From the NCBI GenBank assembly GCA_938030895.1, contig CALHIV010000004.1, forward strand, positions 1 through 64,000: 64,000 nt of DNA, written 5' to 3'. Positions 975 to 45,883 of the stretch are shown here, piece by piece. The translations under genes were made by a program, and so were the position numbers. How positions within the stretch are numbered: the first letter of the stretch is position 1; every line of letters begins with the position of its first letter. Under the pieces are notes generated by a model that worked only from the letters and a program-made list of their open reading frames with translations, was not told the DNA's origin and did no database searches. Origin of the DNA: an uncultured Nitrososphaerales archaeon (GTDB lineage: Archaea > Thermoproteota > Nitrososphaeria > Nitrososphaerales > Nitrosocaldaceae).

Positions 975-1874
975 TTGTTGCTTACAAGTATAGAGGATTA
1001 TATCAAGGCAGGGAGGATAGCGGCAGAGGTTAGGGAGCATATGAGGAAACGTTACCATGTTGGTAGAACGCTACTAGAGATATGTGAAGAGGCAGAAGGG
1101 ATGATAAGGGCAAAGGGAGGAGAACCAGCATTCCCATGCAATGTAAGCCTCAACGAGGTTGCAGCACATTACACTGCAGAGCCCAACGAGAGTATAGAGG
1201 TTAGGGATGGTGATATGCTCAAGATAGATATAGGTGTGCATATAAATGGCTCGATAGCAGATACTGCAGTTACCGTATGCTATAATCCCTCTTACAGCAT
1301 TCTGGTTGAGGCTGCAGAGCATGCACTGAATGAAGCGATAAGGGTAGCAAGGATAGGGGTTAAGGCTAGTGATATAGGCAAGGTTATAGAGCATACGATC
1401 AAGTCATACAGGCTTAAGCCTATACAGAACCTTAGCGGGCACTCTATAGCAAGATACACCATACATGCTGGTAGATCCATACCAAATATATGGACTATAG
1501 ACTCATTCTCATTGCAGCAGGGCGAGGTTTATGCTATAGAGCCATTTGTAACCACAGAGGATGGCTCTGGTGTAGTATACAATGGCGATGTAAGCAACAT
1601 CTACTCTATAGTGAGTAGGAAGAGAACAGGTAGTAAGGAGGCCGATGCCTTCTTGGATATGCTATGGGATAGGTTCAAGACACTCCCATTCGCATTGAGA
1701 TGGTTGAGTGATGTGGATACTAACTATGCTAGGGAGATGATCTCCTTCCTAATGAAGAAGAAGGTTATAAGAGCGTATCCAGTGCTAGTTGAAGGCAATA
1801 ATAGGTATGTAGCACAGGCAGAGCATACCATAATGCTAACTATGGATGGTACAACTATAATAACTAGAGTGTAA
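975..1874 (+). CDS. map: Methionine aminopeptidase, type II (archaeal)
   Basis: Cytosolic dinuclear-metal enzyme that removes the initiator Met from new proteins. Numbered from TTG 975 (299 aa, usual archaeal length), the five ligands are visible: Asp85 (KIDIGVH), Asp96 (IADTA), His156 (SGHSI), Glu189 (AIEPFVT) and Glu near 283 (QAEHTIML). The substrate-side His of NEVAAHY is also present. An in-frame ATG at 864 would put 37 unrelated residues in front and overlap the tRNA-Pro gene. The T/A-rich element CTTTTATTTAT near 946-957 fits a promoter about 25 bp before 975, so 975 (or TTG 978) is preferred. The gene stands alone on its strand. Confidence 0.93.
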   Translation: MLLTSIEDYIKAGRIAAEVREHMRKRYHVGRTLLEICEEAEGMIRAKGGEPAFPCNVSLNEVAAHYTAEPNESIEVRDGDMLKIDIGVHINGSIADTAVTVCYNPSYSILVEAAEHALNEAIRVARIGVKASDIGKVIEHTIKSYRLKPIQNLSGHSIARYTIHAGRSIPNIWTIDSFSLQQGEVYAIEPFVTTEDGSGVVYNGDVSNIYSIVSRKRTGSKEADAFLDMLWDRFKTLPFALRWLSDVDTNYAREMISFLMKKKVIRAYPVLVEGNNRYVAQAEHTIMLTMDGTTIITRV

Positions 1875-43971: not shown

Positions 43972-44110
43972 CTTCTACCTATTATTATCTATACATACCT
44001 TAAATTAAATGTAAAAAGACTTCTATAACATTATATAATAGTGGACTGCTATTGATTAAACTTGATCTCCCTCCCATCTATATCCAGAATTATTAAGAGT
44101 GTAGGGTAAC

Positions 44111-44121
44111 GTTTAATATAC
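44111..44121 (+). promoter_or_regulatory. TATA box upstream of the fluoride riboswitch
   Basis: GTTTAATATAC is about 25-30 bp before 44140-44146, so transcription would begin right at the 5' side of the aptamer. Inferred from spacing. Confidence 0.5.
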
Positions 44122-44145
44122 TGAAGGGATAAGCAAGCAGCAGCA

Positions 44146-44215
44146 GGCTATGGCATCAGCCTAGGCATATCCTAGTAGGGATGCCTGAACCGCCCCCGTG
44201 GCTGATGATGCCTAC
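44146..44215 (+). ncRNA. Fluoride riboswitch (crcB motif)
   Basis: The core matches the crcB consensus. Hairpin P1 GGCT/AGCC (44146-44149/44158-44161) has loop ATGGCATC. The conserved AACC is followed by a short hairpin GCC-CCCGT-GGC (44192-44202) and the hallmark CTGATGATGCCTAC (44202-44215). Loop bases GGCAT (44152-44156) can pair with ATGCC (44208-44212), the pseudoknot that forms the fluoride pocket. A variable extra hairpin, AGGCAT/ATGCCT, sits between P1 and AACC. It lies in the 5' leader of a cation/proton antiporter gene, a class known to be controlled by this RNA. Confidence 0.9.
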
Positions 44216-44261
44216 CGTTGATGTATAATGGTGGCAAAGGCATGTTGGGGGATGATGCAGA

Positions 44262-45368
44262 TTGGTAGATCTGTATAGTAGTGCGGTAGTAGCATCAGCC
44301 ATAGTTGTATCTGGCATTCTAAGTTCAAGAGCAAAGATATCATCCTCAATAATAGAGGTTGCCTTGGGTATAGTTCTTGCAAATGCACTATCCCTAAAGA
44401 TAGAGGGATGGTTAGACTTCCTTGGGACGTTTGGTGGTTTAACGCTTACATTCCTTGCTGGTGTTGAGGTTGAGAGCAGGTTGCTTAGGAGCAAGGCAAA
44501 GGTTAGCAGTGTGATAGGTACTCTAGCATTCCTAGTGCCATTGATAGGGGAGTTGGTCTTCCTTACACTCTTCACCGACTGGAGTTGGAGTGCAAAGTTG
44601 GCAGCAAGCCTAGCATTGACAACAACGTCCATAGCAGTTGTTTATGCAGTTCTTACTGAGTATGGGATCATGCGCACACAGTTCGCAAAGACCATAGTAG
44701 CAGCAACGTTCGTGAACGATATCCTAACAATAGTAGGGATAAGCCTCATAGAGCCAAGGTTCAACATGGTAACAGTAGCATTCCTACCAACACTGGCTCT
44801 GTTAGCACTGGTAATACCAAGGTTAACCAACAGGCTGATAGCAAGGTATGGGGAGAAGGTTGTTGAGGTAGAGTTGAGGTTCATATTTGCTATGCTCTTG
44901 CTAGTATCATTCTTTGCCGATGAGGCAGGGATGCATGCTGTATTTGGTGCATTCATGCTAGGTCTCATATCTGCTAATACACTGCAGAGGCATGATAGAA
45001 CTCTTGCTAAGATGAGGACTGTAACATTCACCATCCTCTCTCCAGCATTCTTCATAAGAGCAGGGATGCTGATATCTGTTAATGCGATAACACAGAACAT
45101 ACTCATGGTACTCATGCTCCTATTGGTTAAGATGTTATCGAAGTTCGCTGGATGCTATATGTTATGTAGGAGATGGCTGCCAGAGGCACCAACATTCTCA
45201 ACACTGCTGTTTAGCACTGGACTTACAGTCGGTACTATAACTGCAACAATAGGAAGAGATCTAGGATTCCTTACACAGGAGCAGTTCTCCATAACTGTTA
45301 TAGCAGTTATATTAAGTGCTGTAGTACCTACAATAATAGCGAAGAGGTTTGTCCCAAAGAATGTATAG
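44262..45368 (+). CDS. CPA2-type cation/proton antiporter under fluoride riboswitch control
   Basis: 368 aa from TTG 44262, about 10-12 membrane helices in the KefB/NapA pattern. FLAGVEVES is in helix 3-4, ALTTTSIAVVYAVLTEYG in the unwound helix region, ATFVNDILTIVG with the Asn-Asp pair typical of electrogenic CPA2 exchangers, and FGAFMLGLISAN. There is no RCK or TrkA domain. GGGGGATGA (44247-44255) is the probable ribosome-binding site. With the riboswitch ahead, it is a candidate for tolerance to fluoride or the linked acid load. That role is inferred. Confidence 0.87.
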   Translation: MVDLYSSAVVASAIVVSGILSSRAKISSSIIEVALGIVLANALSLKIEGWLDFLGTFGGLTLTFLAGVEVESRLLRSKAKVSSVIGTLAFLVPLIGELVFLTLFTDWSWSAKLAASLALTTTSIAVVYAVLTEYGIMRTQFAKTIVAATFVNDILTIVGISLIEPRFNMVTVAFLPTLALLALVIPRLTNRLIARYGEKVVEVELRFIFAMLLLVSFFADEAGMHAVFGAFMLGLISANTLQRHDRTLAKMRTVTFTILSPAFFIRAGMLISVNAITQNILMVLMLLLVKMLSKFAGCYMLCRRWLPEAPTFSTLLFSTGLTVGTITATIGRDLGFLTQEQFSITVIAVILSAVVPTIIAKRFVPKNV

Positions 45369-45433: not shown

Positions 45434-45883
45434 ATGATGGATAGAGGTAAAAGGAAGAGGATACTCGCTGCAATAGATACTACGGATAGCGCAAGATACG
45501 TTATTGAGAAGACTGCAGAGATTGCAGAGATGGTTGGTGCTGATGTAACTGTTCTAACAGTTGTGGATCTCCCTCTAGTCGCAAGTGAAGGAGAAGTCAA
45601 TATGGCTAAGATGGTAAGTGAGGAGAAGAAGATCTCTGAGTATCATAGAGAACTCATAGATAGGTACTTTGGGGGTTCTACTGGCATACTTGTGGAGTCT
45701 ATGATACAGTATGGTGATGCTGGAGATAAGATATGTGAGATTGCTGAGAGGATCCACGCAGATATGGTTGTTATAGGGAGTAGAGGACTTGGTAGGATAG
45801 AGTCTATGCTGCTTGGTAGTGTATCTGAGAAGGTGCTTAGGAAGTGTAGATGCTCAGTACTAGTCGTGAAGGCAGTTATGTGA
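45434..45883 (+). CDS. Universal stress protein (UspA family)
   Basis: 149 aa alpha/beta nucleotide-binding protein. RILAAIDTTDSARYVIEK opens the fold, and the ATP-binding signature GSRGLGRIESMLLGS (Gly-2x-Gly-9x-Gly-Ser pattern) is complete, so it is an ATP-binding type. It follows the antiporter by 65 bp on the same strand and may sense the same stress or bind the carrier, as UspA domains do in some transporters. Confidence 0.9.
   Translation: MMDRGKRKRILAAIDTTDSARYVIEKTAEIAEMVGADVTVLTVVDLPLVASEGEVNMAKMVSEEKKISEYHRELIDRYFGGSTGILVESMIQYGDAGDKICEIAERIHADMVVIGSRGLGRIESMLLGSVSEKVLRKCRCSVLVVKAVM

Follow-up and report, generated by a model that had tools for sequence, protein, structure and literature searches.

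A fluoride riboswitch upstream of a CPA2-like antiporter gene in a Nitrosocaldus-like archaeon, and related pairs in Archaea and Bacteria

Results

Features of the locus

The stretch analyzed here, the first 64,000 nucleotides (nt) of contig CALHIV010000004.1 from an uncultured, thermophilic and ammonia-oxidizing Nitrososphaerales archaeon (assembly GCA_938030895.1; "the window"), contains a fluoride riboswitch aptamer (RF01734) followed by genes for a CPA2-like cation/proton antiporter and a universal stress protein (Table 1). The original prediction, made from the letters alone, had proposed an archaeal fluoride riboswitch at 44146-44261, and a covariance search (cmscan of the window) confirmed it: RF01734 matches at 44137-44221 (+) with 44.1 bits, above its gathering score of 34 (E 6.2e-9), the alignment covers the full model (1-64) and no non-standard pairs were flagged. 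The proposed interval does run from the start of P1 to just 5' of the TTG codon, but the aptamer proper is the Rfam interval. This is the sole RF01734 match in the entire assembly (1.37 Mb, 98.7% complete, Nitrosocaldus-like), and its 3' end lies 40 nt 5' of the antiporter start codon, i.e., in a 5' leader position.

Table 1. Features of the riboswitch-antiporter locus (window coordinates).
Feature	Position	Strand	Evidence or remark
TATA-like box ACGTTTAATATA	44109..44120	+	Putative promoter role
Fluoride riboswitch aptamer (RF01734)	44137..44221	+	44.1 bits
P1 hairpin GGCU-AUGGCAUC-AGCC	44146..44161	+	Loop contains pseudoknot 5' strand GGCAU (44152-44156)
Extra hairpin, 26 nt, between P1 and AACC	44162..44187	+	-11.0 kcal/mol; insertion relative to the Rfam model
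AACC element	44188-44191	+	crcB motif element; short hairpin also present
Predicted fluoride-free blocking hairpin	44193..44251	+	CCCCC/GGGGG outer helix; UGCC and ACCGUUG paired with UAAUGGUGGCA
Aptamer 3' strand GAUGAUGCCUACC	44204..44216	+	Pseudoknot 3' strand AUGCC (44208-44212); doubles as 5' arm of blocking hairpin
8-codon open reading frame (ORF) MLGDDADW, overlapping antiporter start	44242..44268	+	Putative; same frame in G001, G030, G055
Shine-Dalgarno-like GGGGG, 5' of antiporter start	44247..44251	+	From sequence, shared with G001, G030, G055; putative role
CPA2-like cation/proton antiporter, 368 aa, TTG start	44262..45368	+	PF00999 E 3.4e-39; NapA E 1e-11
Universal stress protein, probably same operon	45434..45883	+	PF00582 E 6.6e-32

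The elements originally named (5' hairpin with pseudoknot loop, AACC, short hairpin and CTGATGATGCCTAC) are all present, although that description missed the extra hairpin and the downstream pairing considered below. GGCAU in the P1 loop pairs with AUGCC in the 3' strand to form the pseudoknot, and relatives carry GACAU/AUGUC and GAAGC/GCUUC at equivalent places. Among the 48 aptamers of the order that could be parsed, 40 have a hairpin of at least three pairs at the extra-hairpin position. The window's extra hairpin repeats both pseudoknot strands (GGCAU at 44164 and AUGCC at 44181); these copies were considered as a designed competitor, but they are not retained in relatives such as G002 and G017 and appear incidental. 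Folding the aptamer by itself gives no information, owing to the pseudoknot. An accidental match or decayed remnant is to all intents ruled out by score and conservation: the aptamer scores 10 bits above the cut-off and is retained in three further genomes of the genus (44.5-46.8 bits).

The TTTAATATA box sits 34 nt 5' of P1, and a TTTAA box occurs 30-38 nt 5' of P1 in all eight relatives compared. Given this conserved position, transcription probably begins immediately upstream of the aptamer. The TTG start of the antiporter gene is supported because relatives have a start codon (TTG, GTG or ATG) at the equivalent place.

The antiporter and its distribution in archaea

The downstream gene matches PF00999 (Na_H_Exchanger) over residues 14-363 with 135.2 bits (cut-off 26.2 bits). 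As predicted, it is neither CrcB/Fluc nor CLC-F, and no match to CrcB/Fluc (PF02537) or CLC (PF00654) was found in this gene or elsewhere in its own genome. The nearest solved protein is the CPA2 Na+/H+ antiporter NapA of Thermus thermophilus (PDB 4bwz, 5bz3), homologous over residues 28-355. In the alignment with NapA, the ion-binding Asp (in V151-N152-D153) and the core lysine K294 are retained, with N-D in place of D-D. The AlphaFold model of the antiporter was of low confidence (mean predicted local distance difference test score 55.8) and was not used.

The window protein is 89% identical to one from Candidatus Nitrosocaldus schleperae, in keeping with the archaeal origin originally proposed. 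Within the genus Nitrosocaldus, four of six genomes have the switch; in the other two (G018 and G047) neither the switch nor the antiporter subfamily was found, so the system is dispensable for some members. Across the 201 genomes surveyed for the order, the subfamily is discrete, comprising ten genes of at least 59% identity while the remainder lie near 30%. Upstream DNA was readable for nine of the ten: seven have aptamers above the Rfam cut-off, the aptamer of G035 falls short of it (28.5 bits), and that of G063, without a match to the RF01734 model, was recognized by eye only. Extending the search to the phylum yielded three more subfamily members (G203, G344 and a stop-containing fragment in G467), all with an aptamer immediately 5' of the gene, along with six other matches of about 30% identity with no upstream aptamer. 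All 12 archaeal subfamily members with readable upstream DNA thus carry the aptamer (one by eye only). Elsewhere in the order, genomes with a riboswitch mostly have it upstream of CrcB.

Two further arrangements were seen in the archaeal genomes. G344 (L138) has divergent fluoride riboswitches at 1123-1196 (-) and 1315-1388 (+), less than 200 nt apart, one before the antiporter and the second facing away. In G182, contig C37 carries at ~54-76 kb (L033, L034) seven fluoride riboswitches above or near the cut-off within ~20 kb, neighboring complex-I/Mrp-like membrane subunits, a universal stress protein, a TFIIB-like factor, a HAD-type phosphatase and CrcB; this region is possibly an archaeal fluoride island.

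Bacterial relatives and phylogeny

A plasmid search recovered homologs in Enterobacter, Klebsiella, Citrobacter, Rubrobacter, Methylocystis, Caulobacter and Rhizobium. The aptamer lies directly 5' of the antiporter gene in five of the six bacterial plasmid loci examined; in the sixth (Methylocystis rosea) it lies in front of other genes, ~3.4 kb upstream. The universal stress protein is the next gene after the antiporter in most archaeal homologs and in several bacterial ones (four of the six loci). The pairing is thus conserved in both domains and has been reported in the literature (PMC11139923), which upholds the claim that crcB RNAs sometimes precede antiporters.

In a maximum-likelihood tree, a branch with support 83/88 sets the 16 riboswitch-linked proteins apart from the rest, and it recurs in 82% of bootstrap trees. 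Long branches meet in this tree, and the upstream DNA of one outgroup row labeled "none" (L136, Bacillus methanolicus, 23% identity) lay outside the aptamer scans; for these reasons we regard a single clade of riboswitch-linked antiporters as probable, short of proven. The motifs FFI[RK]AG and STGLTxGTI each occur in 15 of the 16 linked proteins and are missing from all 13 others, whereas TSxAVVY is also present in two of those 13.

Association with CrcB

Eight genomes of the order have a switch-antiporter pair scored by the model, and none of them has CrcB; of the 50 other riboswitch genomes, 46 do (Fisher P 2.6e-7, in a test that ignores kinship, with about four independent lineages represented). 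The contrast weakens when the whole order is counted (1/10 vs. 96/191, P 0.02). G042 has a partial antiporter ortholog together with CrcB, and CLC-family proteins are present in G035, G042 and G063.

Separately, ordinary CPA2-type antiporters (~30% identity) occur within ~3 kb of riboswitch-CrcB loci, outside switch control (G097:C31:2776-3744, G172:C248:231-1196, G085:C1:1991392-1992366 and G082:C1:903771-904739), a hint that antiporters and fluoride genes may also be associated more loosely.

A competing pairing at the translation start

In the leaders, the aptamer 3' strand can alternatively pair with a stretch adjacent to the start codon. We compared this pairing with 200 shuffles per leader, given equal freedom, and it ranked in the top 10 of 200 in 43 of 68 instances from the order. 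Changes that keep the pairs were observed (GCCUACC/GGUAGGC, GUCUACC/GGUAGAC and UUCUACACA/UGUGAGAA). In the window, the predicted blocking hairpin has a minimum free energy of -25.8 kcal/mol (z -3.37; 1 of 200 shuffles equally good) and also appears in the whole-leader fold; its outer helix closes CCCCC (44193-44197) on the Shine-Dalgarno-like GGGGG. When the pseudoknot strands are kept open in the whole-leader fold, the unpaired share of GGUGG (44230-44234) rises from 0.01 to 0.52.

The small ORF that overlaps the antiporter start is retained in four Nitrosocaldus-like genomes with GGUGG 5' of it; speculatively, its translation could be coupled to the antiporter start. Riboswitches of families f8 and f10 mostly fail the common blocking-pairing test (e.g., L028, L012, L008), and immediately 5' of their start codons they carry a downstream GCGAGCGG complementary to the aptamer CCGCUCGC. 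This suggests that they may use another pairing, as a second type of expression platform.

Discussion

Since the aptamer 3' strand can pair with the translation start region and this pairing covaries across the order, a translational ON switch appears to be the best reading, with the precise site uncertain. Judging from sequence, the mRNA would begin with an aptamer that binds fluoride and activates translation of the antiporter, which would be functional in transport; the universal stress protein 3' of it would probably be switched on as well. In the fluoride-free state, the ribosome-binding region would be paired with the aptamer 3' strand and the C-run; binding of Mg-fluoride would let the GGCAU/AUGCC pseudoknot form, disfavor the blocking hairpin and allow translation of the gene. 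The antiporter would then most likely reset cytoplasmic pH and ion balance following entry of hydrogen fluoride (HF). We place the probability of this explanation as a whole at roughly 0.6. According to a review, HF entry acidifies the cytoplasm and cells counter this with Na+/H+ antiporters (PMC11139923); K+ transport genes were already among the targets in the 2010 discovery paper (PMC2864571). The retained Asp and Lys favor cation/proton exchange, and an answer to fluoride by pH adjustment or ion exchange, as originally suggested, would agree with this. The putative exposure to fluoride in geothermal water fits a Nitrosocaldus relative.

Several observations weigh against this explanation. 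The plain pairing test is not significant in the window and three close relatives (ranks 60-77 of 200) because their leaders are G+C-rich, and there the blocking pairing is supported by the fold z-score. The unpaired share of GGGGG rises just from 0.03 to 0.20 when the pseudoknot strands are kept open. As to the protein, the assignment to CPA2 stands in part: the match to TIGR00932 (CPA2) is real, yet at 85.6 bits it is under the cut-off of 238.3, so the protein is better called CPA2-like, an atypical member. In addition, the window protein has STGLTVGT in place of the usual SRGEVGL / RG-x-VGL core stretch (RGEVGL in NapA). Control might instead act on transcription, by pausing or termination, as predicted terminators overlap many bacterial crcB motifs (PMC2864571), but no T-run lies 3' of the hairpin within 44137-44275 and the competing pairing extends to the start region throughout the order; we therefore consider transcriptional control unlikely.

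A rival reading gives the protein a different role. The altered core motifs (FFI[RK]AG and STGLTxGTI), the lack of CrcB and CLC in its own genome and the CrcB contrast within the order leave room for fluoride export, in which the group may replace Fluc/CLC-F, for example by coupling fluoride or HF to protons through the added positive residues of the core. However, known PF00999 proteins transport monovalent cations and the key Asp is retained here, and the CrcB count draws on about four lineages. Moreover, Methylocystis MJC1 has crcB two genes 3' of the antiporter and G042 carries both, which argues that the antiporter is no simple replacement for CrcB. Fluoride export is thus improbable in our judgment, and it is similarly doubtful that the CPA2-like proteins linked to the riboswitch form an additional class of fluoride exporter, the sole dedicated one in thermophilic ammonia-oxidizing archaea without Fluc and CLC-F.

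The finding points to a little-studied transporter group. Na+/H+ antiporters are reported to be the second most common class linked to this riboswitch, behind exporters (PMC11139923); despite this, we found no test of the linked antiporter's function in the accessible literature. Archaea in which the antiporter is the sole recognizable fluoride gene offer a clean setting for the proton-versus-fluoride question, and the order supplies many archaeal riboswitches whose platform can be read and is probably translational. Neither the antiporter group nor the platform was found described for Nitrosocaldus in the literature searched, a limited search that is no proof of absence.

Comparison with known systems

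The window aptamer shares P1, the pseudoknot, AACC, the short hairpin and CUAC with the crcB motif. It differs in that an extra hairpin, frequent in the archaeal order, is inserted between P1 and AACC; the aptamers on bacterial plasmids are just 60-67 nt long. Its predicted blocking pairing lies at the translation start, whereas many bacterial crcB cases have been described with a terminator. Like the window, the fluoride operon of Enterobacter cloacae FRM places a transporter gene and uspA under a fluoride riboswitch, but a CPA2 antiporter is not named among its genes (PMC5533749). The pairs in Enterobacter (NZ_CP116349), Rubrobacter (NZ_CP007516) and Caulobacter (NZ_CP073079) have the same antiporter group, switch and next gene as the window. 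Protein identity between bacterial pairs and the window is 35-38%, and the bacterial proteins mostly have T-D for N-D at the ion-binding motif and, unlike the window, often adjoin mutS, crcB or eno. The switch-antiporter arrangement itself is therefore already known, also in bacteria, and the window is a new example of it; what the analysis adds is the riboswitch-linked antiporter group across two domains, together with an expression platform shared among archaea.
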